NCBI RefSeq assembly: GCF_900454025.1
Contig: NZ_UGQM01000005.1
Location: forward strand, 1 to 63,690
Length of the DNA stretch: 63,690 nucleotides
Direction of reading: 5' to 3'
Source: Mycolicibacterium gilvum
GTDB taxonomy: Bacteria; Actinomycetota; Actinomycetes; Mycobacteriales; Mycobacteriaceae
Position numbers and translations under genes: made by a program. Below, piece by piece: positions 12,330 through 34,403 of the stretch. Numbering within the stretch: position 1 is the first letter of the stretch; the number at the start of each line of letters is the position of its first letter. The notes under the pieces are model-generated. The model was not told where the DNA came from. It made no database searches and saw nothing but the letters and a program-made list of their open reading frames with translations.

Positions 12330-12668
12330 TCAGGCCACCGTGCCGGGCGTTCCGTCGTCGCGGACGAGTGGGTGGCCGGCTTGGGCCCAGGCCTTCATCC
12401 CGCCGTCGAGGTTGACCGCATCAACTCCGGCCTCGACCAAGGTGGCCGCGGCCTTGCTGGATCGGTTCCCTGACCGGCATGTCACGACGACGGTGCCGGC
12501 ATCGGTGAAGGCGCGCGGATCCAGCTGGCTCAATTGCATATGTTCAGCGGCGGGGGCATGTCCGGCTGCCCATTCGTCGTCCTCGCGGACGTCAAGCAAC
12601 CTGACGTTCTCGCGGCCCAACATGTCGACCGCGCGGGTGACGTCGACGTTCGGAGCGGCAGTGCTCAT
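12330..12668 (-). CDS. Single-domain rhodanese sulfurtransferase
   Basis: A 112-residue cytosolic rhodanese. The conserved start of the fold is LLDVREDDEWAAGHAPAAEHMQL, and the active-site loop is CRSGNRSS with the persulfide-forming Cys at residue 64. The DGGMKAW motif that closes the domain is present. Single-domain rhodaneses transfer sulfane sulfur between thiosulfate, persulfides and thiols. The promoter region carries the ATGTACGTACAT element also found upstream of the second rhodanese and of the sulfide:quinone oxidoreductase, which places it in the same likely regulon. Confidence 0.9.
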   Translation of the reverse strand: MSTAAPNVDVTRAVDMLGRENVRLLDVREDDEWAAGHAPAAEHMQLSQLDPRAFTDAGTVVVTCRSGNRSSKAAATLVEAGVDAVNLDGGMKAWAQAGHPLVRDDGTPGTVA

Positions 12669-12728
12669 GTGGCTTCCTCTCTCAAGATGTCCGGCTCGTG
12701 CGCCTCAGCATTCAGCGCAGGTCTTCAA

Positions 12729-12748
12729 ATGTACGTACATCCGGATAG
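12729..12748. promoter_or_regulatory. GntR-type operator, copy 1
   Basis: ATGTACGTACATCCGGATAG. The first 12 bases are a perfect palindrome with the GT-N-TAC-type layout of GntR/HutC operators. The whole 20-mer recurs at 22764-22783. It lies about 60 bp upstream of the minus-strand rhodanese and about 50 bp from the plus-strand gene at 12800. Confidence 0.7.
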
Positions 12749-12777
12749 GCGGGCAAGGAGTTCTCGACATTTGCCGA

Positions 12778-12798
12778 TCTACGTAGTAGATACGTAGA
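12778..12798. promoter_or_regulatory. BlaI-type operator, copy 1
   Basis: CTACGTAG followed by TAGATACGTAGA ends two bases before the ATG of the membrane protein gene. Related CTACGTAG/TAGTAG boxes precede blaI, dsbA, the antigen 85 gene and the NlpC gene. TAGATA at 12787-12792 is at -10 distance for a leaderless transcript, so repressor binding would cover the promoter. Confidence 0.6.
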
Positions 12799-12799
12799 C

Positions 12800-13288: not shown

Positions 13289-13328
13289 GCAACTGCTCAC
13301 CCTGGCAACGGGAACCGGCGCGCGACCT

Positions 13329-14665: not shown

Positions 14666-14702
14666 GGCTTTTAACCCTTCCTAGTCCCTGCGGCGGTGAC
14701 GC

Positions 14703-14721
14703 CTACGTAGAGCGATAGTAG
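14703..14721. promoter_or_regulatory. BlaI-type operator upstream of blaI
   Basis: CTACGTAG, four bases, then ATAGTAG. This has the same parts as the operators at 12778 and 16356 and is placed in the blaI promoter region between blaI and the ccdA-like gene. Confidence 0.6.
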
Positions 14722-14727
14722 CTCGAT

Positions 14728-15609
14728 TCACGAGATGCGCTGTGCGTCGGTGCTCTGCGGATTCGCGCGCCGGCTGTCTCCACCGTGGTCGGTCCGGGTT
14801 CGCCGCCAAAGGCGATGACCACGCCAGGCCAGCAGCGCCAGCGCGACGGCCAGGGCAATTGCGGGTGCGCTCATTGCGGACGCGAAGCGTTCCAGCCAGA
14901 TTTGCACGTCGTACGCCGCGCCGACCCCGAAGATCCCGCCCAGGTTGGCGGTGCCGTCGGTGAGCAGGAACAACACGCCGATCGCGATCATGATCATCCC
15001 GGACAGCAGCGCCGAGGTGTGCGTGTGCAGGGGTCCCAGGCGCACCGGGCGGCCCCGTAGCCATCCTCGGTGTGCAAGGTCGAAGCGCTCCCAGCAGATG
15101 GCGAGGACAAACAGCGGTGCTGCCATGCCGAGGGCGAAGATCGACATCAGCAGTGCCCCATAGAGCGGATTGGCGCCCATCGCGGAGGTGGTGAGTACGG
15201 CACCGAGCAGGGGGCCCGCGCAGAATCCGGCCAGTCCGTACACCGCGCCCAGGGCAATCACCGAGAGGGTGCTTGAGATGTTGATGCGCGCTGTCAGCCG
15301 TTGTGCGCCAGGGACGCCGAAGCCCTTGCCGAGCAGCGTCATTACGCCGAAGGCAATGATCACCGCCCCGCCAATCATGGTGACTTCGCTGCGATACCGG
15401 GTGATGGCGCTGCCCACTGCCCCGACCCCCGCGCCCAACGGCACCAAGACCAGGCACAGTCCCAGCCAGAATGCGACGGTGCGACCGACCAACCGGTGAA
15501 GGCGGTCGAATGCGTAGGCGAAGAACGACGGCAGCAGCAGCGCTGAGCACGGACTCAGCAGCGACGCCACGCCGGCCAGGAAGGCGCCGACGAATCCGAC
15601 GCTGGTCAC
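14728..15609 (-). CDS. CcdA/DsbD-type transmembrane thiol-disulfide carrier
   Basis: A 293-residue membrane protein with six or more helices. The hallmark LLSPCSALLLPSF lies at residues 17-29 with the first redox cysteine (C21). A second one lies in GLAGFCAGPLLGA near residue 128. Family members carry electrons from cytosolic thioredoxin to exported thiol proteins. The start overlaps the stop of the DsbA-like gene by four bases, so the two form an operon in which this protein would keep the partner reduced. The C-terminal tail is basic and cytosolic. Confidence 0.9.
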   Translation of the reverse strand: MTSVGFVGAFLAGVASLLSPCSALLLPSFFAYAFDRLHRLVGRTVAFWLGLCLVLVPLGAGVGAVGSAITRYRSEVTMIGGAVIIAFGVMTLLGKGFGVPGAQRLTARINISSTLSVIALGAVYGLAGFCAGPLLGAVLTTSAMGANPLYGALLMSIFALGMAAPLFVLAICWERFDLAHRGWLRGRPVRLGPLHTHTSALLSGMIMIAIGVLFLLTDGTANLGGIFGVGAAYDVQIWLERFASAMSAPAIALAVALALLAWRGHRLWRRTRTDHGGDSRRANPQSTDAQRIS

Positions 15610-16334
15610 GACTGCTCGGCCGCAGCTTCGATGGCGCGCTCGAAGTCTTCGGTGGGCTGAGCGCCGAGGATCGGATCGCCGTTGACGATGAACGCCGGTG
15701 TGCTCGGGACGCCGAGACTGGTGGCCTGGGTCAGATCGGCGTTGATGGCAGCGTCAAAGGTGGGTCCTCGCATACCGGCGGTGAACTTGTCGAGATCGGG
15801 CACTCCGGCCTGCTCGGCGAAACCGATCAGCGCGTCCTCGGTGAGGTCTGCGTGGCCGCGGTCCGGGGCGACAGCGAAGACGGCGTGGTTGAAGTCCCAG
15901 AATTTCCCTTGCTCGGCGGCTGCTCGGCCTGCGCGGGCCGCCAGCATCGATTGGTCCCCGAAGATGGGGAAGTCACGCCACTCTAGGCGCAATGTTCCAT
16001 TGCTGACAAAGCGTTCGACCAGTTGCGGTTCGGTGTCGCGGCTGAACTTCGCGCAGAAAGGGCATCGATAATCGGCGAACATGACCATGACAACCGGCGC
16101 ATCCACCTCGCCCAGTGCGAGTGGATCGTTGATGGCGCGCCGCTCTACAGACAGCAATGTTGTGTCGCTCGGCGTCGAAGGCGTCAGTTGCGTTGATATT
16201 GATGGTGATTCGGCAGTCGGTGCGCCATTGTCGGGGGAGTCCATGATCAGGTACACGATCAGCGCCACGGCGATGACCAGAAGCCCGCCGATGAACGCGA
16301 CATCTTTGCCGACATTGTTGCGCTGACTCGCCAT
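15606..16334 (-). CDS. Membrane-anchored DsbA-like thioredoxin
   Basis: A 242-residue protein with an N-terminal anchor (VAFIGGLLVIAVALIVYLIM, residues 12-31), a Ser/Thr/Pro linker and a DsbA/thioredoxin-4-type domain. The redox motif is YRCPFC (C91, C94), and GVPSTPAFIVNG gives the cis-proline loop. It is expected to act outside the membrane on disulfides of exported proteins, paired with the overlapping CcdA-like carrier. A BlaI-type box starts 22 bp upstream of the ATG, so it is probably expressed when BlaI is inactivated. Confidence 0.9.
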   Translation of the reverse strand: MASQRNNVGKDVAFIGGLLVIAVALIVYLIMDSPDNGAPTAESPSISTQLTPSTPSDTTLLSVERRAINDPLALGEVDAPVVMVMFADYRCPFCAKFSRDTEPQLVERFVSNGTLRLEWRDFPIFGDQSMLAARAGRAAAEQGKFWDFNHAVFAVAPDRGHADLTEDALIGFAEQAGVPDLDKFTAGMRGPTFDAAINADLTQATSLGVPSTPAFIVNGDPILGAQPTEDFERAIEAAAEQS

Positions 16335-16792: not shown

Positions 16793-17244
16793 TTACTCTG
16801 TCGCTTCAGTCGGCATGGCTAACGTCACCCAGTCGTGCAGTCCTCCCCGATAATAAGCCAATGCTGATGCGGGATAACCACTTTCCAGAAGCTGCCGAAT
16901 CGCGTCGGCCGATTGTCGGCATTGCGGACCGTTGCAGAACACGATGGTCAATCGATCTGAGTCGAACTCATTGCGATGTTCTTCGATCGCGTCGTGCGGG
17001 ATGTTAACAGCACCTGGGATGGTAACCCCGTTCCTTGAATCGGGTACCCGAGTGTCGACGAGTGCGGCGCCACCGCGCACCTTCTCGAGTAGTTCGAGCT
17101 CACCCACGGTAACGACATTCGGGGCACAGTGCAGTGGCTGCAGTTTTCCCACGTCGTATCGACCGCAACCAGATCGGGCTGTCCATCCACCGGACAAGGC
17201 ACACCGACGGGATCCTGGGATCGCGTTCTAGTCCGACGCGTCAT
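16793..17244 (-). pseudogene. Rhodanese-like gene with a single-base frameshift
   Basis: The body (VTVGELELLEKVRGGAALVDTRVPDS and the active loop FCNGPQCRQSADAI) is a rhodanese domain running to the stop at 16793. Its natural N-terminus (MTRRTRTRSQDPVGVPCPVD, then QPDLVAVDTTW) lies in another frame starting at the ATG 17244 (or 17268). The two join if one G is added to the TGG-GAAAA tract near 17144-17150, which would give TTWGKLQPLH. The loss of one base in a homopolymer could be a real mutation or a sequencing error. If corrected, the protein would be about 150 residues. The family transfers sulfane sulfur. Confidence 0.75.
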
Positions 17245-17612: not shown

Positions 17613-18236
17613 CGCGACGAGGGGATCAAAGAACCCAGCCGGTGATAGCGGTCCCGGCGTCCGCGCAGCACGGCGACTGCATACACACTGGCGACGGCGA
17701 ACCCGCCACCAGAAACGTGGCGATGATCATGTGCACGGTCTGCGGCGGCGTGGCGGGATTTAACGTCGCCGCGCACACGTCGACGATGGTGACCCCACCG
17801 TTGACGAGGTCGAACCCGCGCGGCCGGGTCGTCCACGCGTTCGCCATCACGACGAAGAACACCGAGGCGATCCCGGCCACCGCGCCGGGGCTTCCGGAGA
17901 GCAGGTGGTCGTCGGCGAGAAGCCGGTCCCAGCCGTAGAATAGATTCCCAGAACGAGCCCCCTATTGCCTTGGCCCAGCGGCGCGCCAGCAGCTGGCAAT
18001 GCACGTCGCCGGTGCGGAAGCCTCGCCACTCGGCGAACAGCACCAACACCGGCATCCGACGCTGAAGCAGGCCAGAGTGACGGCGCGGGAGCCGGCGGAA
18101 GCGGCGGCGTGCGCCAACCCAACGACAGCGCCATCTGGTCGTGCGCGGCTACCAGATCCCACGCTGCGGCCAACTCGGTCACCATCGCGAGGAGACAGGC
18201 GGCGGCTACGGCGTCGTCATGCGACCGCGGTGACAC
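17606..18236 (-). pseudogene. Wreck of a cytochrome bd oxidase subunit I gene
   Basis: CydA-type segments occur in order but in different frames: AAWDLVAAHDQMALSLGW (quinol oxidase start, with the usual QMALSLGWH context), MPVLVLFAEWRGFRTGD and ARRWAKAIG, then GIASVFFVVMANAWTTRPRGFDL, ATPPQTVHMIIATF and VASVYAVAVLRGRRDRYHRLG. A large part of the helical core and the whole C-terminal half are absent. Several frameshifts rule out function. It differs clearly from the intact cydA at 32014, so it is a separate relic. Confidence 0.8.
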
Positions 18237-20016: not shown

Positions 20017-20553
20017 TCAAGGCCGAGGGTGCCAGATGGCCGCGACCCGAAACCGCACACCGTAGGTCGTGCCGTCGCGAGGCGACGCGCCAGAGGTGGT
20101 ATGCAGACTGACCGCCGCCTGCGCCTGCGGACTCAGGGTGGTGAACGTCGATCTCCGCTGCACCGCAGTCTTATTCGTCCCAACGCCCGTCGCAGTAAGG
20201 GTGTAGGTTTCGCCGTAGTCCAGCGGCACGGCAGGCGTCCACGACTGCCCATCTGAGGCCACAGCACCTGGAATCGGCGCACCCCGGTGATTGACCAGCG
20301 ATACCTCTCGGAGTACAACTGCGGTGACTGTCGCCGAGACGCCTTCGGTGGGATGCACGCCGGTCGCTCCCGCAGGTGGCGTGATCACCACGGTCGCCGG
20401 CGTGGCTGGCATCGTCGCTGTGCTCACGGGTGCAGCACCCTCGCCGACATCGCTGGGCCAAAACATGAATGCGGCCGCAGCGATGGCCGCGACGGCCACT
20501 GCTGCGCTTGAAATGTGGCGCCACGTCAAGTGTCGTCGGCGAACGAGAACCAC
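20017..20553 (-). pseudogene. L,D-transpeptidase lacking its catalytic domain
   Basis: The 178-residue frame starts at a GTG (20553) with a good AGGAGGG site, has a membrane anchor (ISSAAVAVAAIAAAAFMFW) and an immunoglobulin-like domain of the LdtB type (VVITPPAGATGVHPTEGVSA, VPLDYGETYTLTATGVG, TFTTLSPQAQAAVSLHTTSG). The same order is seen in the intact paralogue at 30694. The sequence stops after TTYGVRFRVAAIWHPRP, before the second Ig-like part and the YkuD domain with the HGC motif. It is therefore a remnant without cross-linking activity. Confidence 0.8.
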
Positions 20554-20689: not shown

Positions 20690-21739
<1,050 letters not shown>

Positions 21740-21836
21740 TACGCCGGCCCTCTCGACGTCCAGCATTTATGGGCATGCGCCCGACTGCGCACAGCCGCAC
21801 GCGGTCAACCAGCGCCGCGGCAGCCCAATGCCGGCG

Positions 21837-22532
21837 TCAGACATCGATGACGCGGGTTACGTTTGGGGTCATTCCGCCGAGGCGGACCGGGGACACCTTC
21901 ACCGGAACACCGGATTGTTGAGCTTCGACCATCTGACCGTTGCCGAGGTAGAGCGCCTCGTGTTGGCTGCCGCCAGGCCCCCAGAAGAGCAGATCGCCGC
22001 GCCGTGCCTGGGCACGGGGCACCTGACGCCCGGCGGTGTACTGGTCGCCCGACCACCGAGGAAGCAGAATTCCGACCCCCGCGAAGGCGAAGCGAGTCAA
22101 GCCTGAGCAGTCGAAGCCGACGGTGCCTGCGCCGCTGTCCACACCCGCGCTTGGCCCGTTGACGTCTCCGCCTCCCCAGGAATACGGCACTCCGAGCTGT
22201 GAACCTGCCCGTCGCACAACGTATTCGATCGCCATCGGCCCCTTTGCGCGGACGCTTCGCGGTGCGCCCACTGTCGGCAAGGCGGCGCCCATGAGGAAGC
22301 TGCGGCCCAATTCGAGCGTGGTCTCGGTGGCGATCCGGGCGGCCTCCAACGACGCGTTGGCGATAGCCACGGGATCCCCGGGCGCACCCGCGCTGGCCCG
22401 GCGCGGCAACGTAGGGTCCCACTGCTCAGGCTGTGCCACTGCATGTACCGGAAAAGCGGCCATCGCCCACGGCGTACCGACCACGCATGCCAGGCGGAGA
22501 GCATCACGGCGCCGCACAACGGCAACCTCCAC
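21837..22532 (-). CDS. Secreted NlpC/P60 peptidoglycan endopeptidase (Rip-like)
   Basis: A 231-residue protein with an N-terminal export signal (RLACVVGTPWAMAAFPVHAVA). The C-terminal NlpC/P60 domain starts near residue 98 (MAIEYVVRRAGSQLGVPYSWGG). The catalytic Cys142 is in GFDCSGL and His191 in GSQHEALYLG. It cleaves peptide stems within the wall. The size and single catalytic domain are close to mycobacterial RipD/RipB. It is convergent with the antigen 85 gene and has a BlaI-like box about 30 bp upstream of its start. Confidence 0.9.
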   Translation of the reverse strand: MEVAVVRRRDALRLACVVGTPWAMAAFPVHAVAQPEQWDPTLPRRASAGAPGDPVAIANASLEAARIATETTLELGRSFLMGAALPTVGAPRSVRAKGPMAIEYVVRRAGSQLGVPYSWGGGDVNGPSAGVDSGAGTVGFDCSGLTRFAFAGVGILLPRWSGDQYTAGRQVPRAQARRGDLLFWGPGGSQHEALYLGNGQMVEAQQSGVPVKVSPVRLGGMTPNVTRVIDV

Positions 22533-22562
22533 GTCGTTATCGAAGTCGAGTTACTGAATTAA

Positions 22563-22585
22563 TACGTACGTAGCTAGACAGTAGG
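22563..22585. promoter_or_regulatory. BlaI-like box upstream of the NlpC gene
   Basis: TACGTACGTAG followed by CTAGACAGTAGG, with half-sites similar to the other BlaI-type elements but less regular. It is the weakest of the five. Confidence 0.4.
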
Positions 22586-22763: not shown

Positions 22764-22783
22764 ATGTACGTACATCCGGATAG
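22764..22783. promoter_or_regulatory. GntR-type operator, copy 2
   Basis: ATGTACGTACATCCGGATAG, identical to 12729-12748 over 20 bases. It is 69 bp upstream of the rhodanese start. Confidence 0.7.
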
Positions 22784-22807
22784 GCCGTCCGCTGTGTTAC
22801 CGTGGCG

Positions 22808-22823
22808 ATACCCTACGGGGTAT
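22808..22823. promoter_or_regulatory. CstR/CsoR-type inverted repeat
   Basis: ATACCC-TACG-GGGTAT. CsoR-family repressors bind G/C-tract inverted repeats of this form. It is 28 bp upstream of the rhodanese start, and a very similar repeat precedes the CstR-like gene itself. Confidence 0.65.
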
Positions 22824-22851
22824 TGAGAGATCCGTTTGAGAAGGGAAATCC

Positions 22852-23442
22852 ATGACAACTCCGAGTGCCGCCTTCCTGATCGACCCGTCCGAGCTTGAGG
22901 AGATGTTGGGGTCGCCGACGCCTCCGCGTGTCCTCGATGTGCGCACACCGGGGGAGTTCGAGACCGTTCACATCGGTGGCGCCTACAACGTGCCCTTAGA
23001 TCTGCTGCGTGAGCATCGAGAGGACATCTCCCGCCACCTCGACCAGGACGTGGTGCTGGTGTGTCGGTCGGGTCAGCGGGCTGCGCAGGCCGAGGAAGCG
23101 TTGCGCGGTGTGGGTCTGCCGAATGTGCATGTCCTGGATGGGGGCATGGCGGCGTGGGAGAGCCGCGGCCTGGCGGTCAATAAGGGCCGGACGCGCTGGG
23201 ATCTTGAGCGCCAGGTGCGGTTGGTGGCCGGTTCTCTTGTGTTGAGCAGTGTGCTCGCCAGCGTGGTTGCCCCCAAGGTCAAGTGGCTTGCTGCCGGGAT
23301 TGGTGGCGGTTTGACGTTCGCCGCAGTGTCGGACACCTGTGCGATGGGCATGCTGTTGGCCAAGCTTCCTTATAACCGCGGGACCTCGTGTGACGCACAA
23401 TCGATCGTCGCCGAGTTATCCGCGACGGCGACTCCGCGTTGA
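22852..23442 (+). CDS. Membrane-bound rhodanese (YgaP-like, rhodanese plus DUF2892)
   Basis: A 196-residue protein. The rhodanese domain spans residues 5-110, with LDVRTPGEFETVHIGGAYNV and the active loop CRSGQRA (Cys71), and closes with LDGGMAAW. From about residue 123 two hydrophobic helices follow (LVAGSLVLSSVLASVV and WLAAGIGGGLTFAAVSDTCA), matching the DUF2892 membrane part of YgaP-type proteins. It handles sulfane sulfur at the inner face of the membrane. Both a GntR-type and a CstR-type operator precede it, so it seems to be under double control. The ATG follows GAGAAGGGAAATCC. Confidence 0.92.
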   Translation: MTTPSAAFLIDPSELEEMLGSPTPPRVLDVRTPGEFETVHIGGAYNVPLDLLREHREDISRHLDQDVVLVCRSGQRAAQAEEALRGVGLPNVHVLDGGMAAWESRGLAVNKGRTRWDLERQVRLVAGSLVLSSVLASVVAPKVKWLAAGIGGGLTFAAVSDTCAMGMLLAKLPYNRGTSCDAQSIVAELSATATPR

Positions 23443-23472
23443 CGCGGAACACGGCACAGACGCCGCAGTCCG

Positions 23473-24264
23473 TCAGCTGCTCGGCGACAGGGCGCCCTCG
23501 GTGAGGAATCGGTAGCCCTCGGTCGGGGAGAAGCGGGCGCTGACGGTGAAGCGGTCTGCGCGAATTAGCGTGTGGCGCAGTTCGATTGGCTTCTGTTCTA
23601 CGCAACTGAGCCTGCGGATGGCCAGGGCGGCGCAGCGCTCGTCGAGCGCGAGCAGCTCGGCTTCCGGCGGTTCGGGAACGACTGCGGTGATGTCTTCGCG
23701 CCCGCCGGTCAATCGAACGCCGCAACGGGTCTCGAGTTCGATGTAGAGCGCGGTATGGGTGAAGTCCGCCTCCAGGAGCGGTCGGGCGACTTCGGCGGGC
23801 AACCAGGCGAAGTCTAGGGCGAGGGGATGATCGCCGGCCATGCGAAGACGCTCCAGGTAGACCAACGACGCGTCGGGTGGCAGTTCCAGTGTTGTGGCCA
23901 CGGTGGGGTCTGTTCGGACGTCGAGGACGCGTACCACACTGTGCTGGGGCACCCCGGTGGCCTCGACTGCGGCGAACAGGCTGTAGAGCGCACCAAGGGG
24001 CTGCTCGATCACCGGCACTTCGGCAAGTCTGGTCGCTCGTCCCCGCTCGGCGATCAATACGCCCGCGTGGCGCAGATGGCGCAGCGCTTCGCGCACAGTG
24101 TGACGGCTCACGCCATAGCCGCTGGTCAAGGCATGCTCTCCGGGAAAGCCGGAGGTGAATTCACCGGCCTGGATGCGTGCCAGGAGGTCAGCATGCACTT
24201 GCGCCCATAACGGGAGCGCGCTGCTGCGATCGATGCGCGATGCGAGGTCTCCCTGCTGGGCCAC
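23473..24264 (-). CDS. GntR-family regulator, HutC/UTRA subgroup
   Basis: A 263-residue regulator. A winged helix occupies residues about 12-75 (LPLWAQVHADLLARIQAGEF, then GVSRHTVREALRHLRHAGVL), and a UTRA effector domain follows with YLERLRMAGDHPLALDFAWLP and ELETRCGVRLTGGREDI. The GTG at 24264 has AGGAGGT just upstream, so the longer reading from 24438 is not used. Palindromes ATGTACGTACAT lie in its own promoter region (24349-24364) and before two rhodanese genes. These fit a HutC-type operator, so this protein is the likely regulator of the sulfur genes. The ligand is unknown. Confidence 0.88.
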   Translation of the reverse strand: MAQQGDLASRIDRSSALPLWAQVHADLLARIQAGEFTSGFPGEHALTSGYGVSRHTVREALRHLRHAGVLIAERGRATRLAEVPVIEQPLGALYSLFAAVEATGVPQHSVVRVLDVRTDPTVATTLELPPDASLVYLERLRMAGDHPLALDFAWLPAEVARPLLEADFTHTALYIELETRCGVRLTGGREDITAVVPEPPEAELLALDERCAALAIRRLSCVEQKPIELRHTLIRADRFTVSARFSPTEGYRFLTEGALSPSS

Positions 24265-24348
24265 GATTACCTCCTCGTCCCTCGGTTTGCTTGGCACCCA
24301 GTGTCGCGTGCAGTAGTGCATTTCCGGGACTGACACGCTAGCGTAGTC

Positions 24349-24364
24349 GGATGTACGTACATCC
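24349..24364. promoter_or_regulatory. GntR-type operator, copy 3 (GGATGTACGTACATCC)
   Basis: A perfect 16-bp palindrome centred between the divergent gntR and sulfide:quinone oxidoreductase genes, 85 bp and 103 bp from their starts. It shares the ATGTACGTACATCC core with the other two copies. Confidence 0.75.
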
Positions 24365-24466
24365 CTACATCTTGGCGTGGATCTGTTCCGCCGCTGGAGC
24401 GCGCTCGGTGAGCAGCGGCTTCGTGCAGGGACGGGCATCCGCCACCAGACTTCAGGAGGTTGAGCA

Positions 24467-25666
24467 GTGAATGCAGTAGGACATCAGGTCGTCGTCATTG
24501 GGGGCGGTAACGCGGGAGTGTCGCTGGCGGCACGCCTTCGGCATGCGGGCATGAACGACGTCGGGATCATCGAGCCCTCGGACACGCACTACTACCAGCC
24601 GTTGTGGACGCTGGTCGGCGGGGGCTGTGTGAAGGCGGACGCCAGCGCTCGGCCGCAGGCGTCGGTGATGCCGCAGGGTGTGGGATGGGTCAAGGATCGG
24701 GCTTGTGAGATCGATCCGGAGAAGCAGCGCGTCAGCACCGAAGGTGGGGTCACTGTCGGTTACGACCACCTCGTGGTGTGTCCGGGTATCCAGCTCGACT
24801 GGACTGCGGTGCCCGGTATGGCCGAATCCTTGGACTCGGCAGCGGTGTCGAGTAACTATCGCTACGACTTGGCGCCCAAGACATGGGAGTTGATCAGGTC
24901 GATGCGGTCGGGAACGGCGATTTTCACGATGCCGTCGGGGCCGATCAAGTGTGCGGGTGCGCCGCAGAAGATCGCTTACCTGGCTGCCGATTACTGGCGG
25001 CGCCAGGGGGTGCTGTCCAAGATTCGGATCGTCATGGTGTTGCCGACCCCGGGCATGTTCGGTGTGAAGGAGTTCTCCGACGAACTTGAACGCGTCGTGG
25101 CCCGCTATGGCATCGAGGTGCGCTTCAACAGTGAAGTCACCACCGTCAATCCCGACACCCGCACGGTGACGATCACAGACAACGCCGCCGACAGCACCTC
25201 CGAGGTCGGCTATGACCTGCTGCATGTCGTCCCCCGCCAGTCGGCGCCGGACTGGATCAAATCCAGCCCGCTGCGCGCTGACGACAATCCCGGCGGCTAC
25301 GTCGATGTGGACAAGAACACTATGCGGCACAATTCCTTTGACAACATCTTTGCTCTCGGCGATGCCGGATCGACACCGAACTCCAAAACCGGTGCCGCGA
25401 TCCGCAAGCAGGCCCCAGTGGTGGCGGCCAACCTGGCTGACAGCATCGCCGGCCGCCCACTGTCGGCGTCCTACGGCGGATACGCGTCGTGTCCGTTGAC
25501 CACCGCGCGCGACAAGATGCTGCTCGCCGAGTTCGACTACACGATGCGCCCGGCACCCTCGATCCCGTTCATCGACACTACCCACGAACGGCGCGACATG
25601 TGGCTGCTCAAGCGCTACGGGCTTCCCGCGATGTACTGGAACCTGATTCTCAAGGGCCGGGCGTGA
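24467..25666 (+). CDS. sqr: Sulfide:quinone oxidoreductase
   Basis: A 399-residue flavoprotein. The FAD-binding N-terminus is VVVIGGGNAGVSLAARLR (residues 8-25), and the distal FAD motif is NIFALGDAGSTPNSKTGAAI. Redox cysteines are C162 (GPIKCAGAPQK) and C342 (GGYASCPLTT), the pair expected for an SQR that oxidises sulfide and passes sulfane sulfur to a thiol acceptor while reducing quinone. It resembles the type II, mitochondria-like group. The C-terminal amphipathic part (WLLKRYGLPAMYWNLILKGRA) suits membrane association. It starts with GTG after AGGAGGTTGAGCA. It is divergent from a GntR regulator with an operator between them and is followed by the ctaD-CstR-PDO cluster. Confidence 0.93.
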   Translation: MNAVGHQVVVIGGGNAGVSLAARLRHAGMNDVGIIEPSDTHYYQPLWTLVGGGCVKADASARPQASVMPQGVGWVKDRACEIDPEKQRVSTEGGVTVGYDHLVVCPGIQLDWTAVPGMAESLDSAAVSSNYRYDLAPKTWELIRSMRSGTAIFTMPSGPIKCAGAPQKIAYLAADYWRRQGVLSKIRIVMVLPTPGMFGVKEFSDELERVVARYGIEVRFNSEVTTVNPDTRTVTITDNAADSTSEVGYDLLHVVPRQSAPDWIKSSPLRADDNPGGYVDVDKNTMRHNSFDNIFALGDAGSTPNSKTGAAIRKQAPVVAANLADSIAGRPLSASYGGYASCPLTTARDKMLLAEFDYTMRPAPSIPFIDTTHERRDMWLLKRYGLPAMYWNLILKGRA

Positions 25667-25736
25667 CTGCGGTAAGAGTGCTGCATGATCGACCCTGATG
25701 AGCGACGATTGAATGACGCCGAAGCGGGGTTTGGTT

Positions 25737-25752
25737 TATACCGGAGGGGGTA
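25737..25752. promoter_or_regulatory. Imperfect CstR-type repeat upstream of ctaD
   Basis: TATACCGGAGGGGGTA contains ATACC and GGGTA half-sites as at 22808 and 27654, but with an imperfect centre. It lies about 110 bp before the ctaD start. Confidence 0.4.
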
Positions 25753-25862
25753 CGTCATGATCGGCTCCGGTGTGAGGCAAATAAGAGGGTCTAGCGACAG
25801 GCCTCATCGCTGGCGACGGAGAAGCTGAGCGGCGCGAGAGTGCCCTGTCGTAGGGGAGACGC

Positions 25863-27975
<2,113 letters not shown>

Positions 27976-28009
27976 CCCGACGACCCATTAGAGAGAACAG
28001 GGGAACATC

Positions 28010-28426
28010 ATGACGTTGGCCATATCAACCACACTGCAAACGGGGTTCGATGAGGCCGTGCGCCGAACCCGAGAAGCATTGTCCGAACAGGGTTTCGGCG
28101 TGCTGACCGAGATCGACGTGAAAGCGACGTTGAAGAAGAAGCTCGATCAGGACATGGAGGACTACTTGATCCTGGGTGCCTGCAACCCGCCGCTGGCACA
28201 CCAGGCCATCGACGTCGATCGCCAGATCGGCCTGCTGCTGCCCTGCAACGTCGTCGTACGCGCAGACCGTGACGAACCCGGGACGGTGATTGTCGACGCG
28301 ATGGACCCGCAGATCATGGTTCAGGTCGCTGATCAGGTCGGGCTGCAACCTGTCGCCGACAGCGCGGCCGCCAAATTGCGTGCCGCCATCGAATCGCTGA
28401 CGTCCGCCGCCGACTCTTCCCGTTAG
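28010..28426 (+). CDS. DUF302 protein
   Basis: A 138-residue cytosolic DUF302 protein. Conserved elements are FDEAVRRTREALSEQGFGVLTEIDVKATLKKK (shown as landmarks), the YLILGACNPPLAHQAI core and the LLPCNVVVRAD strand. The family function is not established. The protein often accompanies rhodanese, SQR, CsoR-type or thiol-redox genes. The conserved Cys in GACNPP and LPCNV could bind a sulfur species or metal, which is speculation. It is preceded by GAACAGGGGAAC and lies in line with the CstR-like gene, 34 bp downstream of it. Confidence 0.88.
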   Translation: MTLAISTTLQTGFDEAVRRTREALSEQGFGVLTEIDVKATLKKKLDQDMEDYLILGACNPPLAHQAIDVDRQIGLLLPCNVVVRADRDEPGTVIVDAMDPQIMVQVADQVGLQPVADSAAAKLRAAIESLTSAADSSR

Positions 28427-28462
28427 ACGTTCGTCGGTGTCTACGTGTAGTGACGACTCAGC

Positions 28463-29239
28463 ATGACCGTGTCCATCGCTCTGGCCCTGGCGTTCGGCGC
28501 CCTCATCGGAGTGCTGCTCGGATTGTTGGGCGGCGGGGGCTCGATCCTGGCGGTACCGGCGCTGGTGTACGCCGTCGGGCTGGACATGCAACAAGCAATC
28601 CCGGTGTCACTTCTGGTGATCGGCGTGGCCTCGGCGGTCGGTGCGCTTCCCAAGATCCGGGCCAAGCAGGTGCAATGGCGTCTGGCAGGTGTGTTCGCCG
28701 CGGCGGGCATACCCGCGACCTTTGCCGGCGCCGCGATCGGGTCGCACCTTCCGCAGTCGGTGTTGTTACTGGGCTTCGCCGCGGTGATGGTGCTGGCCGG
28801 CGCCCGGATGCTCAGCAGCAACGACCACACCGGCACCGCCTGCGACGCCGAGGGCGGCATCGACTGGCGGCGCTGCGCTCCGCGATCCATCCCCGCCGGG
28901 TTGGCGGTCGGGCTCCTGACGGGACTGTTCGGCGTCGGCGGCGGATTTCTGATCATCCCCGCCCTGGTGCTGATGCTCGGAGTGGAGATGCCGATCGCGA
29001 TCGGCACGTCGTTGCTGATCATCGTCGCGAACTCAGTCGCCGGCTTCTTGTCCCACCTGCACGGATTGAGCGTCGACTGGGCCCTCGCGGGGGCATTCGC
29101 GGCCACCGCGACCGTCGCCTCGCTCGTCGCGGGCCAGCTGGGCACCCGCCTCAACACCGACCGGCTGCAGCGCTGGTTCGCCTACCTGGTCTTCGTGGTC
29201 GCGGCGTTCGTCGTCGTCGACACCATCTTCTTGCGCTGA
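28463..29239 (+). CDS. TauE/SafE-type sulfur anion exporter
   Basis: A 258-residue membrane protein with eight hydrophobic helices in two halves. The family repeats are visible as GALIGVLLGLLGGGGSILAVP near the N-terminus and GLLTGLFGVGGGFLIIPALV in the second half. TauE/SafE proteins in cst-type operons are thought to export sulfite or related sulfur anions. It lies between DUF302 and the persulfide dioxygenase, whose product sulfite would be a natural substrate. All these genes run in one direction with short gaps, so they form one operon. Confidence 0.9.
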   Translation: MTVSIALALAFGALIGVLLGLLGGGGSILAVPALVYAVGLDMQQAIPVSLLVIGVASAVGALPKIRAKQVQWRLAGVFAAAGIPATFAGAAIGSHLPQSVLLLGFAAVMVLAGARMLSSNDHTGTACDAEGGIDWRRCAPRSIPAGLAVGLLTGLFGVGGGFLIIPALVLMLGVEMPIAIGTSLLIIVANSVAGFLSHLHGLSVDWALAGAFAATATVASLVAGQLGTRLNTDRLQRWFAYLVFVVAAFVVVDTIFLR

Positions 29240-29284
29240 CACAACCTCATACCGCACGACAATCTCGAACAAAGGAGCAAAGCC

Positions 29285-30637
29285 ATGAACGTGACCATCA
29301 TCGAAACCTCGGGTCTCGGAGACCGTAGCTACCTGGTCAGCGACGGCGACGTCGCCACCGTCATCGACCCGCAGCGCGATATCGACCGGGTCCTCGACCT
29401 CGCGCAGGAGAAGAACGTCAGCATCACCCACGTGCTGGAGACCCACATCCACAACGACTACGTCACCGGCGGGCTGGAACTGGCCCGCACCGTGGGAGCG
29501 GAATACGTCGTCTCAGCCGAAGACGACGTGGCCTTCGACCGTCGCCCGGTCGCTGACGGCGACATCATCGACGCCGGCCCGTTCCGTTTCCAGGTGCTGC
29601 ACACCCCAGGCCACACCCACACCCATGTGAGCTATGTCCTACAGAACACTGGCGGCGAGCCGGTCGGCGTTTTCACCGGCGGGTCGATGTTGCACGGCAC
29701 CACCGGACGCACCGACCTGCTCGGCGATGACCACACCAAGGAGTTGACGCACGCACAGTTCCACTCCGTGCGCCGGCTGGCCGCCGAACTGCCCGACGAC
29801 GTGCAGGTCTATCCCACCCACGGATTCGGCAGCTTCTGCTCGGCCACCCCATCCAGCGGTGACTCGTCGACCATCGCCGAGCAACGGTCCAACAACCCGG
29901 CACTGACCAACGACGAACAGACCTTCGTCGACGAACTCATTGCAGGCTTGTCGGCATACCCCGCCTACTACGCGCACATGGGCGTCATCAACGCCGAAGG
30001 CCCACAACCGGTCGACCTGTCCATGCCCGCACCGGTCGACGCCGGCGAGATCCGCCGGCGGATCGATTCGGGTGAATGGGTGGTCGACCTGCGCAACCGA
30101 ACGGCATTCGCCGCGGGCCACCTCTCAGGCAGCATGGGATTCGAACTGTCCGGCCAGTTCGTCACCTACCTCGGCTGGCTCTACGCCTGGGGTACGCCGC
30201 TGACCCTGATCGCTGAGCGGCCCGAGGACATCCTCGAAGCGCGCCGCGAACTGGCCAGGATCGGTGTCGACAACCTCACCGGATCAGCGGTGGGCGACGT
30301 GGACACCCTCGCCGACGGTACGGCGCTGAACTCCTACCGGGTCGCCGACTTCGCCGACCTGCGCGAGACGATCGGGGCAGACGGTCTCACGGTCCTCGAC
30401 GTGCGGCAGACCAACGAATTCGACGAAGCCCACATCCCCGGCGCGCTCAACATCCCCCTGCACGAGCTGCTGTCGCGCCGCGGCGAGGTCCCTGACGGAC
30501 AGGTGTGGGTCCACTGCGGGTCCGGGTATCGCGCCTCGATCGCCGCCTCGATGCTCGACAAGCCCAGCCGCACAGTCGTGCTCATTGATGATGCGTTCGA
30601 CAACGCCAAAGAGCAGGAACTGGTCGGCGCCGCATAG
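29285..30637 (+). CDS. Persulfide dioxygenase-rhodanese fusion (CstB-like)
   Basis: A 450-residue fusion. Residues 1-235 are a metallo-beta-lactamase-fold persulfide dioxygenase of ETHE1 type, with H54, H56 and D58 in ETHIHNDYVTGG, HTPGHTHTHV with H110, and YPTHGFGSFC with H179 and Cys185. Residues about 248-340 are a rhodanese-like domain without an active Cys. Residues about 350-450 are an active rhodanese with VHCGSGYRAS (Cys411). This three-part order is that of CstB. It converts low-molecular-weight persulfide to sulfite and, with the rhodanese, to thiosulfate, which completes the pathway begun by SQR. It uses an ATG after AAGGAGCAAAGCC. Confidence 0.93.
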   Translation: MNVTIIETSGLGDRSYLVSDGDVATVIDPQRDIDRVLDLAQEKNVSITHVLETHIHNDYVTGGLELARTVGAEYVVSAEDDVAFDRRPVADGDIIDAGPFRFQVLHTPGHTHTHVSYVLQNTGGEPVGVFTGGSMLHGTTGRTDLLGDDHTKELTHAQFHSVRRLAAELPDDVQVYPTHGFGSFCSATPSSGDSSTIAEQRSNNPALTNDEQTFVDELIAGLSAYPAYYAHMGVINAEGPQPVDLSMPAPVDAGEIRRRIDSGEWVVDLRNRTAFAAGHLSGSMGFELSGQFVTYLGWLYAWGTPLTLIAERPEDILEARRELARIGVDNLTGSAVGDVDTLADGTALNSYRVADFADLRETIGADGLTVLDVRQTNEFDEAHIPGALNIPLHELLSRRGEVPDGQVWVHCGSGYRASIAASMLDKPSRTVVLIDDAFDNAKEQELVGAA

Positions 30638-30693
30638 GCGGCGCCGCGTCGTCCCGACCGTTGCTCCATCGAACTCTTGTGAGGAACCCCGTC

Positions 30694-31938
30694 GTGTCAG
30701 TCACTCGCCGCTCGCGCGCGCTCCTGGCGGCCGCGGTTGCCATCGTCATAATCGCCGCCGGAGGTGTCGGGGTCTGGGCGTGGACACGCAGCGACACCCC
30801 GGTGCCGGTCGCCACTCCGTCTCCGCCGTCGACCACACCGGCGACGGTCACGTTCCGTCCGGCGGCCAACGCCGCCGATGTCGACCCCCTCGGCGACGTC
30901 AGGGTCCAGGCCAGCGACGGCACGCTTGCCAGTGTGTCGATGGTCAACGACAGCAACGTCGCGGTTCCTGGCGTGATCACCCCCGATGACCTGCTGTGGA
31001 AACCCACCGTTGCGCTCGGTTACGGCCGCACCTACACGGTGACTGTTCAGGCCCGCGGCGTCGGCGGCACACCGGTGACTCGCACGTCGAGATTCACCAC
31101 GTTGACGCCGAGCAACCAGACCAAGGTGTCCCTGACGACCACCTCCGGGGCGGCGATCACCGCCGGGGGCACGTACGGGGTCGGTACCGTCGTGGTCGCG
31201 CACTTCGACGAGCCGATCGCCGATCGCGCCGCGGCGCAGCGCCGCTTGTCTGTCACGACCGCGCCGACGGTTCAGGGCTCGTGGTACTGGATTGACGACC
31301 AGAACGCCCATTGGCGCCCGGAGCGTTACTACACCCCCGGCACCACCGTGGGGGTCGCGGCGAACGTGTACGGAGCAGCTCTCGGTGATGGCCTCTACGG
31401 CCAGGAAGACACGCGGGTGTCGTTCCGGATTGGTGACTCCCACGTCTCCGTCGCCGATGATGCCACCAAACAGATCAGCGTCTACCAGAACGGTCAGCTG
31501 GTCCGCACCATCCCGACCTCGATGGGCATGGGCGGCACTGAATCGGTGGCAGGACAGGAGTTTTCGTTCTGGACCCAACCCGGGGTTTACACCGTGATGG
31601 ACAAGGCCAATCCCGTGATCATGGACTCCTCCACCTACGGGCTGCCGATCAATTCGCGCCTCGGTTACAAGGAAACCATCCCGTATGCCGTGCGGCTGTC
31701 CAACGACGGCATCTACGTCCACCAACTGGAGAGCACGGTGTGGGCACAGGGCAACACCAACGTCTCCCACGGCTGCCTCAACGTCAACGCCGACAACGCT
31801 CAGTGGTTCTACGACTTCGCCCAACCCGGAGATGTCTTCGAGGTGCGCAACACCGGCGGGCAACCGTTGCAGGTATGGCAGAACGGGGACTGGAGCCTGC
31901 CCTGGGACCAGTGGCTTGCCGGCAGTGCATTGACCTGA
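30694..31938 (+). CDS. L,D-transpeptidase (LdtB-like), membrane-anchored
   Basis: A 414-residue exported enzyme. An N-terminal anchor (ALLAAAVAIVIIAAGGVGVWAW) is followed by two Ig-like domains and the YkuD catalytic domain. The catalytic motif IYVHQLESTVWAQGNTNVSH is followed by GCLN, giving the HX17-SHGC arrangement with the nucleophilic Cys, and the C-terminal subdomain (WQNGDWSLPWDQW) is present. It makes 3-3 cross-links in peptidoglycan and resists most beta-lactams except carbapenems. The GTG at 30694, with GAGGAA upstream, is preferred to the TTG at 30661. It follows the persulfide dioxygenase by 57 bp and may be cotranscribed. A truncated paralogue lies at 20017-20553. Confidence 0.92.
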   Translation: MSVTRRSRALLAAAVAIVIIAAGGVGVWAWTRSDTPVPVATPSPPSTTPATVTFRPAANAADVDPLGDVRVQASDGTLASVSMVNDSNVAVPGVITPDDLLWKPTVALGYGRTYTVTVQARGVGGTPVTRTSRFTTLTPSNQTKVSLTTTSGAAITAGGTYGVGTVVVAHFDEPIADRAAAQRRLSVTTAPTVQGSWYWIDDQNAHWRPERYYTPGTTVGVAANVYGAALGDGLYGQEDTRVSFRIGDSHVSVADDATKQISVYQNGQLVRTIPTSMGMGGTESVAGQEFSFWTQPGVYTVMDKANPVIMDSSTYGLPINSRLGYKETIPYAVRLSNDGIYVHQLESTVWAQGNTNVSHGCLNVNADNAQWFYDFAQPGDVFEVRNTGGQPLQVWQNGDWSLPWDQWLAGSALT

Positions 31939-32013
31939 CACGCGATAGCGATGAAGCGATGGGAAGTGATCGGATGGGCGCGATAACTGTGGGGATCATC
32001 CAGGCGGGCCGTC

Positions 32014-33405
32014 GTGTGGGGTAGTGAGGCGACGCTGCTGCTGTGGGCCGCCGCAGGCGAGCCACCCGGTCTGCTGCCCGCACGCCAACAGATGGCCGTA
32101 TCACTGGGCTGGCACATTGTGCTGGCCAGCTTCGGGGTGGCATTTCCCACCATCATCTATGTGATGCATCGGCGCGGCATCGTCCGCAACGATCCGGTCG
32201 CGCTGGGCTTGGCGCGGCGCTGGGCCAAGGTGTCCGCCGTCCTCTTCGCGATCGGAGCGGTATCGGGCACCGTGCTGAGCTTCGAGATGGGCCTGCTGTG
32301 GCCCGGCCTGATGGGCCGTTTCGGCGACGTCCTCGGCCTGCCCTTCGCCTTCGAGGGGTTGTCCTTCTTCGTCGAAGCGATCTTCCTGGGGATCTACCTC
32401 TACGGTTGGGATCGCATGCCACCGCGGCGCCACCTGGCCATGCTCATCCCGATGGGCATCTCGGGGGTGGTCGGCACCTTCTGCGTCATCTCGGTCAACG
32501 CGTGGATGAACCACCCCGCCGGATTCACCATCCGCGACGGCCACGTCGTCGACGTCAACCCCTGGGCGGCGATGTTCAACAGCGGAGTGTGGCTGCAGTT
32601 CCTGCACATGTGGGTGGCGGCCTTCATGGTCGTCGGCCTCACAGTATCCGGGGTGTACGCGTTCGGGCTGCTGCGCGGCCGGACCGATACCCATCACAAG
32701 CTCGGATTCACCGTGCCGTTTTCGTTCGCCGCGGTCGCCGCGGTCGCCCAACCGTTCATTGGGCACGTGCTCGGCATGCGGATCCATGACACCCAGCCGG
32801 CCAAGCTCGCGGCGTTCGAACTGGCTCAGACCACTGAGGGACCCGCGCCGCTGCGCCTGGGGGGTGTGCTCATCGACGGCGAGGTGCGTTGGGCGCTGAC
32901 CATCCCCAGACTGGGGTCCCTCATTGCTCGCAACTCCTGGGACGCACCCGTCCCGGGCCTGGAGGACATCCCTCGATCGGAGTGGCCGCCGGTCAACATC
33001 ACGCACCTGGCGTTCCAGTCGATGGTGGGCATTGGCACCCTCCTGGCCGCTGTGGCGGTGGTGTACTGGCTGGCCCGTTGGCGCGGATACGACTTGCTCG
33101 GCAACCGGTGGTTCCTCCGCGTGTCGGTCCTCACCGGGCCGCTGGCCATCGTGGCTGTCGAATCCGGGTGGATCGCCACCGAGGTCGGCCGCCAGCCCTG
33201 GACGGTGTGGCAGGTGCTGCGCACCGTCGATGCCGCCAGCCAGAGCAGCGGTCTGTGGTGGAGTTACATCACGGTTTTGGTCGTCTACCTGGGGATGACG
33301 GTCGGTGCGGTCGTGGTACTGCGGTCGATGGCCCAACGGTGGCGGGCCGGTGAAGTCGACCTACCCAGCCCGTACGGACCTCCGCGCACGGAGACGGTGC
33401 CGTGA
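32014..33405 (+). CDS. cydA: Cytochrome bd-type quinol oxidase subunit I
   Basis: A 463-residue membrane subunit with about nine helices. H34 lies in QQMAVSLGWHIVLASFG, the second haem His in LHMWVAAFMVVG and the GRQPW motif in EVGRQPWTVWQVL. The quinol loop is short, as in the CIO/AppC-like branch. Bd oxidases reduce oxygen with quinol, do not pump protons and resist cyanide, nitric oxide and sulfide, which fits the neighbouring sulfide-oxidising genes. GTG at 32014 is the apparent start. It overlaps cydB by four bases. No cydDC genes are seen. Confidence 0.93.
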   Translation: MWGSEATLLLWAAAGEPPGLLPARQQMAVSLGWHIVLASFGVAFPTIIYVMHRRGIVRNDPVALGLARRWAKVSAVLFAIGAVSGTVLSFEMGLLWPGLMGRFGDVLGLPFAFEGLSFFVEAIFLGIYLYGWDRMPPRRHLAMLIPMGISGVVGTFCVISVNAWMNHPAGFTIRDGHVVDVNPWAAMFNSGVWLQFLHMWVAAFMVVGLTVSGVYAFGLLRGRTDTHHKLGFTVPFSFAAVAAVAQPFIGHVLGMRIHDTQPAKLAAFELAQTTEGPAPLRLGGVLIDGEVRWALTIPRLGSLIARNSWDAPVPGLEDIPRSEWPPVNITHLAFQSMVGIGTLLAAVAVVYWLARWRGYDLLGNRWFLRVSVLTGPLAIVAVESGWIATEVGRQPWTVWQVLRTVDAASQSSGLWWSYITVLVVYLGMTVGAVVVLRSMAQRWRAGEVDLPSPYGPPRTETVP

Positions 33406-34403
33406 CGCTGGCCACCGTGGTCGCGATGGCGATGTTCCTCGGCGTGATCATCTACGCGCTGCTGGGGGGTGCTGACTTCGGTTCCGGCTTCTACGACCTG
33501 ACCGCCGGCAACGCGCGCAGCGGCGCAGAAATTCGCACCCTCGTCGACCACAGCATCGGACCGGTGTGGGAAGCCAACCACGTGTGGCTGATCTACATCT
33601 TGGTGATCTGGTGGACGGGGTTTCCCGCGACTTTCGCTGCCGCCACTACCACGTTGTTTATCCCGTTGGCGTTGGCGCTGGCTGGAATCGTGTTGCGAGG
33701 GGCTAGTTTTGCGTTCCGGAAGTACTCGGCGACAATGTCGCAGGCCCGGTTGTTCGGTGCGATCTTCGCCGGTTCGTCGCTGATCGCTCCCTTTTTCCTC
33801 GGTACGGTCGCCGGGGCGATCGCCTCGGGTCGCGTCCCGGCAGACGGTTACGGCGACCGCGTCGGCTCGTGGCTTAACCCGACGTCGTTGGTTGGGGGGT
33901 GTCTGGCCGTCGCCACTTGCGTGTTCCTCGCCGGGGTGTTCCTGACCGCCGACGCCGACCGCGCCGGCCACAGCGATCTGGCCGACAGTCTGCGACTGCG
34001 GACCCTCGCCGTGGCCGCTCTCACCGGCGTGATCGTCTTCGCTGGGCTCTACCCCGTCACGCACGACGCTCCCACTCTCGCCGCCGGGCTGCGTAGCCAC
34101 GCCTTCCCGTTGCTCGTGCTCGCACTTGTCGCAGGGGTGAGCGCGGTGATCCTCGTTTTCCGCCGTCGCTACGCGATCGCCCGGGTAGCCAGCGCAGCGG
34201 CAGTCGGGTCAGTGATCACCGGGTGGGGCGTTGGTCAATACCCGTGGCTGCTCGTCGACGAAGTCACGATCGGCGACGCCGCTGGAGCTGACGCCACGCT
34301 GGCCGGGTTGCTGGTGGTCGTTGCCCTCGCCGCCGTCATCGTGCTGCCGGCCCTGGGCTACTTGCTCTACCTCACCCAAACCGAAGAGTGGTCGCGCAGC
34401 TAA
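33402..34403 (+). CDS. cydB: Cytochrome bd-type quinol oxidase subunit II
   Basis: A 333-residue membrane subunit with about eight helices. The opening YALLGGADFGSGFYDL is the family N-terminus, and PVWEANHVWLIYILVIWWTGFP is the diagnostic second block. The GTG start overlaps the cydA stop. With cydA it completes the oxidase. This intact pair stands beside a separate, decayed cydA at 17606, so the oxidase module has been gained more than once or replaced. Confidence 0.93.
   Translation: MTLATVVAMAMFLGVIIYALLGGADFGSGFYDLTAGNARSGAEIRTLVDHSIGPVWEANHVWLIYILVIWWTGFPATFAAATTTLFIPLALALAGIVLRGASFAFRKYSATMSQARLFGAIFAGSSLIAPFFLGTVAGAIASGRVPADGYGDRVGSWLNPTSLVGGCLAVATCVFLAGVFLTADADRAGHSDLADSLRLRTLAVAALTGVIVFAGLYPVTHDAPTLAAGLRSHAFPLLVLALVAGVSAVILVFRRRYAIARVASAAAVGSVITGWGVGQYPWLLVDEVTIGDAAGADATLAGLLVVVALAAVIVLPALGYLLYLTQTEEWSRS

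Follow-up and report, generated by a model that had tools for sequence, protein, structure and literature searches.

The 63,690-base stretch of Mycolicibacterium gilvum DNA analysed here (the window) carries, within about 12 kb, genes for sulfide oxidation beside genes for two regulators and for terminal oxidases, and raises the question of what such an assembly does for its host. A preliminary description of the sequence read it as a sulfide and persulfide detoxification and respiration island. The island is probably a mobile accessory set for surviving sulfide and persulfide, carried over and above a chromosomal copy of the same pathway. This reading is favoured because of the protein families and their aligned cysteines, operators conserved in relatives, and a gene order shared with the M. 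adipatum plasmid pMYC1 and with G002, another locus of the genus. The pathway is of a known kind, here in a plasmid-like second copy, to which a predicted wiring by two regulators and, within the persulfide-sensor run, a bd oxidase have been added.

The island and its relatives

Sulfide would enter the pathway through a human SQOR-like sulfide:quinone oxidoreductase (SQR; 24467..25666, + strand). A PDB search matches it to human SQOR at E 2e-100, residues 6-397 align, and the KCAGAPQK and SCPL cysteines, the catalytic pair of the active site, are both matched. Ahead of SQR stand a YgaP-like rhodanese with a YgaP-type membrane domain (22852..23442, +; PF00581, PF11127; 83% identical to its pMYC1 counterpart) and, on the minus strand, a GntR/HutC-type regulator with a UTRA domain (23473..24264; PF00392, PF07702; 87% to pMYC1). 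An orphan ctaD for aa3 oxidase subunit I (25863..27608, +; NF050116) follows. Behind an exact CstR-type site, seven genes then run on the plus strand: a CstR-like repressor of the CsoR/CstR family (27706..27975; PF02583), a DUF302 protein (28010..28426; PF03625), a TauE/SafE exporter (28463..29239; PF01925), a fusion of metallo-beta-lactamase (MBL) and rhodanese domains that is a predicted persulfide dioxygenase (PDO), here MBL2 (29285..30637; Pfam), an L,D-transpeptidase (LDT) with an Ig-like domain (30661..31938; PF17964, PF03734), and cydA (32014-33405; PF01654) and cydB (33402-34403; PF02322) of a bd-type quinol oxidase. With open reading frame (ORF) starts as called, the gaps are 34, 36, 45, 23 and 75 bases, followed by a 4-base cydA/cydB overlap. 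The CstR start, TTG 27706, follows the pMYC1 annotation and is the most likely one; the LDT start is uncertain, pMYC1's annotated start lying about 30 residues further in. The genes lie about where the preliminary description had placed them, apart from two that the description missed: the GntR regulator and the LDT within the run.

In the proposed working of the island, SQR would oxidise sulfide and deliver the electrons into the quinone pool, and the persulfide product would be handed on by the YgaP-like rhodanese and by a single-domain rhodanese at 12330. The MBL-rhodanese would oxidise persulfide with O2 to sulfite, and TauE would export the product. A persulfide-sensing CstR-type repressor would release the CstR-DUF302-TauE-PDO-LDT-CydAB run, probably as one transcript, together with the YgaP gene; the GntR/UTRA regulator, through a palindrome of its own, would separately control SQR/GntR, YgaP and the 12330 rhodanese. 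CydAB would offer a respiratory route that tolerates sulfide, and the extra CtaD, LDT and CcdA/DsbA plausibly stand in for haem-copper and extracytoplasmic cysteine enzymes that are sensitive to sulfide, or mend them. The sulfur side of this scheme (SQR, persulfide, rhodanese, TauE and CstR) had been proposed in the preliminary description and is supported by the families and aligned cysteines.

Two known circuits resemble the island. The Streptomyces coelicolor SCO0618-0621 circuit has a CsoR/CstR-type repressor with the operator ATACCn6GGTAT, a PDO-rhodanese, TauE and a rhodanese (PMC7533328), and these four, ScCsoR, PDO, TauE and rhodanese, act together (PMC7533328). As described there it comprises four genes, and neither SQR nor a GntR regulator nor any oxidase gene is among them; the window adds all of these as well as LDT, DUF302 and CtaD, on a plasmid-like contig. 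The Staphylococcus aureus cst operon (CstR/CstA/CstB/SQR; PMC8148161) shares with the window a CstR-type repressor, the MBL-rhodanese fold (3r2u) and SQR. The proposed likeness to cst holds to that extent and stops at the metal site, where S. aureus CstB keeps an Asp ligand and MBL2 has Gly; the oxidase, GntR and LDT genes are likewise extra in the window. A CstA-like protein was not seen among the 50 ORFs scanned with Pfam, a part of all window ORFs, where only YgaP-like and single-domain rhodaneses turned up; no search was aimed at one.

The host already possesses most of this pathway. Its chromosome holds, in a row of its own, SQR (58%), a canonical PDO (73% to that of pMYC1), YgaP (74%), TauE (42%), CstR (81%), DUF302 (76%) and MBL2 (74%), so that the island largely duplicates the chromosomal pathway. 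An SQR at least 81% identical occurs in 8 of the 297 genomes of the genus sample, the host included. A close relative, pMYC1 (NZ_CP015597.1), has the order YgaP-GntR-SQR-ctaD-CstR-DUF302-TauE-MBL2-LDT, with proteins 74-97% identical. It differs in having a sulfite oxidase, a second TauE and, placed between YgaP and GntR, a canonical PDO (MBL1); unlike the window, it has no CydAB in the stretch viewed. The G002 row has GntR, SQR, ctaD, TauE, MBL2, LDT and CydAB; it holds no YgaP or DUF302 gene, and CstR is present only as a 25-residue piece. Among the five islands with SQR at least 92% identical, two, pMYC1 and G233, have MBL1, which is absent from the window, from G286 and from the stretch of G002.

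More distant plasmids carry related sets. M. chubuense NBB4 pMYCCH.01 (NC_018022.1) shares SQR, a YgaP-like rhodanese, CstR-type regulators, DUF302, TauE, MBL2 and CstR-type sites, but it has a canonical (Asp) PDO and, in the stretch viewed, no GntR palindrome, ctaD or CydAB. The Rhodococcus plasmids pLP1, pCP2 and TG-1 unnamed4 carry a GntR with the same palindrome, an SQR 76-79% identical, a rhodanese, TauE, ctaD and a CstR-type regulator, in the order ctaD-TauE-rhodanese-GntR-MBL-SQR-CstR. Their ctaD thus stands at the other end, an MMPL transporter is present, and no LDT-CydAB is annotated in the stretches viewed. The claim that no mycobacterial plasmid system matches the island in completeness therefore fails on deposited sequences, and the gene-order search that had been suggested finds the order in pMYC1, so it is not unique. 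The literature searched, an incomplete sample, yielded no description of such a system on mycobacterial or Rhodococcus plasmids, nor one that joins a GntR regulator with SQR and persulfide. These islands suggest that plasmids of Mycobacteriales carry sulfide handling about as cargo, at times along with spare parts for respiration.

Glycine at the metal site of the MBL-rhodanese

The most novel part of the island, and the part that most deserves follow-up, is its PDO, a member of a clade with a Gly metal site. Canonical PDO iron is held by two His and one Asp (PMC6060420, PMC12856154), and these ligands have been called '(almost) irreplaceable' (PMC6060420). MBL2 keeps both ligand His and reads Gly at the Asp position (VFTG-G-SMLHG, the central G in VFTGGSMLHG). 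The preliminary description had called it a CstB-like PDO-rhodanese, which has to be corrected at the metal site: the fusion of an MBL domain to a C-terminal rhodanese with its catalytic Cys is present (Pfam), and the two-His-one-Asp site of CstB-like type III PDOs is not.

The Gly is a property of a group of enzymes. The 120 best of 8000 scored homologs, all at least 73% identical and the window's own included, have Gly at this position without exception; all 120 also retain the rhodanese Cys of WVHCGSGYRA and a His four residues past the second ligand, where MBL1 has Ser. Across 80 loci chosen for holding MBL2, a survey of ORFs of 380-900 residues kept 97, and the 84 best matched by MBL2 all read Gly; the 13 best matched by MBL1, the canonical PDO, comprise 12 with Asp and 1 with Gly. 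These counts include close homologs and near-identical plasmids, which do not stand for independent cases. A mutation private to the window's contig is ruled out by the 120 homologs and 84 ORFs. A tree of 104 rows parts Gly from Asp states with one change (SH-aLRT 89), although it comes from a quick search, with 6 unlabelled rows (which read Gly in the ORF survey), three very long branches and a long Gly row, L132_97, at the base of the Asp side. MBL2 relatives at E <=1e-100, counted without regard to the Gly/Asp residue, occur in 21 of 198 sampled actinobacterial species, the host's included. The AF2 model of MBL2 has a mean pLDDT of 75 and falls under 50 in stretches that include 57-60, 138-140, 143-145 and 181-192, so it is used for overall fold only; that fold matches 3tp9 and 3r2u. 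Each of two Streptomyces loci (L117, L121) carries a pair of MBL2-type genes, one of them in surroundings like those of SCO0618-0621.

Two characterised enzymes bear on whether such a site supports dioxygenation. AcPDO retains 0.5-2% activity when this Asp is changed to Ala, Glu or His. Gly at either ligand His kills that enzyme; Gly at the Asp is not among the variants seen. The S. coelicolor enzyme, ScPDO, which its describers class as a typical type III PDO, consumes O2 with glutathione persulfide (GSSH), at a Vmax of 1.19 umol O2 per min per mg and with a Km of 94 uM, and makes sulfite from it; its deletion raises cellular sulfane sulfur (PMC7533328). The guide sequence printed for the ScPDO gene (PMC7533328) reads T-G-G-S-L-L in one frame and differs by one base from a Streptomyces toyocaensis locus in which an MBL2-type gene contains it, in frame, as FTGGSLLIGTVGRPDLV. 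The neighbours of that gene (TauE, CstR, rhodanese) resemble SCO0619-0621, plus one extra rhodanese-like segment between. Judged from the guide, and not from the SCO0618 sequence itself, ScPDO appears to be of the Gly type. AcPDO is reported at 111.5 U/mg in an assay different from that used for ScPDO. The low rate of ScPDO with GSSH beside that figure may mean that GSSH is the wrong thiol, since actinobacteria use mycothiol, or that lacking the ligand has a real price.

Dioxygenase activity of MBL2 is thus suggested by analogy with ScPDO only, and the alternative that bears hardest on it is that the Gly-site protein is a sulfurtransferase or hydrolase, the chromosomal canonical PDO oxidises persulfide, and the island merely makes and moves sulfane sulfur. 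The Asp-to-Gly change itself, the drop of the AcPDO Asp variants to 0.5-2% activity, the canonical PDO retained on the chromosome, and the Asp read in the MBL next to SQR in pLP1, pCP2, pTC2 and pMYCCH.01 all speak for it. Against it stand the O2 consumption, sulfite production and deletion phenotype of the apparently Gly-type ScPDO, and an MBL2-like gene between GntR and SQR in TG-1, G141, G153 and G254, read as Gly in TG-1, G141 and G254. A Gly-site enzyme can evidently be an SQR partner, judging by gene position, and is not the only kind. The alternative of a sulfurtransferase or hydrolase seems doubtful.

The bolder proposal, on which the evidence is evenly poised, is that an actinobacterial PDO-rhodanese clade would work without the Asp carboxylate, with Gly fixed and another group completing the site; in this island a persulfide sensor would wire the enzyme to a sulfide-resistant bd oxidase, and a second regulon, that of GntR, would tie it to SQR. 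His56, His114 or His179 (window numbering), water or substrate may complete the site. It would then have converged on the three-His or ligand-vacant non-haem iron sites of cysteine dioxygenases and halogenases. The Gly-site clade puts the phrase '(almost) irreplaceable' to the test, with one ligand apparently removed in many actinobacteria and activity apparently kept in at least one tested member. No natural Gly site was found described in the PDO metal-site literature, as far as its incomplete coverage here extends.

Predicted operators and respiratory genes

Two operator codes, one for each regulator, are offered for testing. The palindrome ATGTACGTACAT, a predicted GntR operator, has three exact copies in the window, all within island promoters: ahead of the 12330 rhodanese (12729..12740), upstream of the YgaP-like gene (22764..22775) and, as the core of GGATGTACGTACATCC (24349..24364), in the GntR/SQR divergent promoter. 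The first base of the second copy, 22764, is also where the preliminary description had begun its island. At up to two mismatches there are 4 matches (3 exact) against 0.55 expected, and none of 100 shuffles reaches 4. The palindrome lies upstream of GntR in 11 of the 13 Mycobacterium and Rhodococcus regions examined; of the two exceptions, G063 has it before SQR instead and the R. antarcticus locus has one-mismatch sites elsewhere only. A second GTAC-rich stretch, taatacgtacgtagct, lies at 22560-22575, about 190 bp upstream of the YgaP-side copy. A conserved GntR Cys, considered as a thiol sensor, is kept in 14 of 16 aligned homologs, too little for a claim.

The second code is that of the ScCsoR operator, ATACCn6GGTAT (PMC7533328). 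The window has two exact matches, both predicted CstR operators: ATACCCTACGGGGTAT (22808..22823), 28 bp before the YgaP-like gene, and ATACCCCCCTGGGTAT (27655..27670), 35 bp before TTG 27706. At up to two mismatches the window has 17 sites where 6.9 would be expected, so that loose CstR-like matches elsewhere mean little. The 80 MBL2 loci contain 85 exact sites, and each of five rounds of order-1 Markov resampling gave 0; in 42 of the loci such sites, 67 in all, stand no more than 300 bp ahead of a queried island gene, and 29 loci have no exact site. A weak CstR-like site with one mismatch, ATACCGGAGGGGGTAC (25738..25753), lies upstream of ctaD; the pMYC1 gap before ctaD has none at up to one mismatch, and control of ctaD by CstR was dropped from the scheme. 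From the placement of the exact sites we infer that GntR would govern sulfide entry through SQR and CstR the removal of persulfide, with both acting on YgaP.

The link of the island to a bd oxidase, claimed at the outset, is supported by the gene arrangement: cydA and cydB adjoin as one bd oxidase gene pair at the end of the same-strand run that starts behind an exact CstR-type operator. Bd oxidase has been called resistant to H2S, and in Acinetobacter baumannii sulfide is reported to induce it with SQR, PDO and TauE (review PMC8148161). CydA of the window is 91% identical to that of G002 and only about 27% identical to chromosomal CydA, which makes it a distant branch of the family. The LDT also adjoins MBL2 in pMYC1 and G002. 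In Acidiferrimicrobium (L122), CydB-like segments share a locus with relatives of CstR, GntR, MBL2 and DUF302, possibly an independent link between oxidase and persulfide genes.

On the minus strand at 17621-17949 lies a remnant of bd-oxidase subunit I, with 37% identity to window CydA across 83 residues, for which chromosomal CydA gives no match at E 1e-3; an LDT remnant (the Big_10 part), 45% identical to the window LDT, lies at 20056-20430 (-). A decayed second LDT near a decayed CydA suggests module turnover.

The place of ctaD is looser. The orphan CtaD shares 85% and 84% identity with the two chromosomal copies, and no altered catalytic site was noticed in an alignment judged by eye. In three Rhodococcus plasmids ctaD lies within the SQR/GntR islands at another position, and it was not found near SQR in R. 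antarcticus or pTC2. In a tree of 14 rows, built without a Rhodococcus chromosomal copy, the island CtaDs of Rhodococcus lie on the opposite side from those of mycobacteria, which suggests that ctaD was recruited separately in the two groups. On three actinobacterial plasmids (L133-L135), the neighbours of an orphan ctaD are BlaI/M56, heavy-metal ATPases and peptidoglycan enzymes, a pattern like that of a store of spare parts.

That pattern would fit a copper or silver stress island, in which the CsoR-family protein would sense metal, and ctaD, LDT, BlaI/M56 and peptidoglycan enzymes would be spare targets. In its favour, ctaD keeps company with heavy-metal P-type ATPases, BlaI/M56 and peptidoglycan enzymes on pJCM12603, JOB5 unnamed2 and pKB1, and the CstR site resembles CsoR/RicR sites. 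However, the window protein keeps two Cys (RDC...GMRQC) and has Gly at the CsoR copper-ligand His position, and by this Cys-Cys arrangement without the His its sequence is of the CstR type; no heavy-metal ATPase occurs among the 50 ORFs scanned, and SQR, the rhodaneses and PDO are sulfur enzymes. A metal-stress function is unlikely. Much the same can be said of a lithotrophic energy module, with sulfide as an extra electron donor to CydAB and aa3 and detoxification secondary. SQR does share one island with two terminal-oxidase parts, but no other sulfur-oxidation gene is present among the same 50 ORFs, the pMYC1 sulfite oxidase has no match on the window's contig, and repressor control plus an exporter suit detoxification better, leaving this use of sulfide improbable. 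The idea that these genes are scrambled or decaying cargo and do little together, to which the two minus-strand remnants and the loss of canonical PDO might point, is very hard to credit given open core genes 74-97% identical to pMYC1 and intact operator-like sites.

Several observations nonetheless weigh against reading the island as one set that protects from sulfide and persulfide. In the 8 loci compared within the genus, where pMYC1 stands for G034, CydAB lies in the island only in the window and G002, and ctaD was not found in four of these loci with SQR at least 81% identical (G233, G141, G153 and G254; 20-kb stretches). Some metal-resistance plasmids have ctaD but, in the stretches viewed, no SQR, and by this distribution ctaD is not specific to sulfide islands; its CstR-like site is weak and not conserved. 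The ScCsoR site resembles CsoR and RicR sites according to its describers (PMC7533328), so that chromosomal copper regulators could bind the predicted CstR sites. Canonical PDO (MBL1) is not on the window's contig, where only MBL2 matches that of pMYC1; the PDO kept, MBL2, is without one metal ligand, and the MBLs beside SQR are of both kinds.

Contig setting and outlying genes

The window is the entire contig C5 of an 11-contig, 6.43-Mb genome and is distinct from the 6.15-Mb contig C1. The preliminary description had placed the island on an ESX plasmid. The ESX set stands: PPE, WXG100 (a match scoring under Pfam's cut-off), FtsK/SpoIIIE ATPase, EccB, EccD, subtilase and EccE genes lie at about 40-62 kb, and ParA-like genes are also present (Pfam). 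A comparison of the contig ends found no terminal overlap; by its gene content the contig is plasmid-like, and plasmid status is likely.

Beyond the GntR regulator and LDT, the island also includes a minus-strand module at 12330-16334, whose membership (12.3-16.3 kb) the preliminary description missed. It comprises the single-domain rhodanese (12330..12668; PF00581, E 1.7e-17; 74% identical to a pMYC1 gene), 60 bp downstream of a GntR-type operator, and, by Pfam, an M56 metallopeptidase (13329-14252), a BlaI-type repressor (14249-14665), CcdA (14728-15609; 58% to its pMYC1 counterpart) and a DsbA/thioredoxin-like protein (15606-16334; 60%). A rhodanese-like ORF follows at 16793-17197 (-); this and the 12330 rhodanese had been reported nearby, and both were found. 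CcdA, thioredoxin and rhodanese genes stand ahead of the pMYC1 island, and on an R. antarcticus plasmid SQR, rhodanese and TauE have CcdA, thioredoxin, BlaI and M56 genes no more than a few kb away. A putative esterase and a RipB-like NlpC/P60 protein (20759-22532) adjoin the island; esterase and Rip genes also lie near the G002 island, the Rip there being matched in two pieces.

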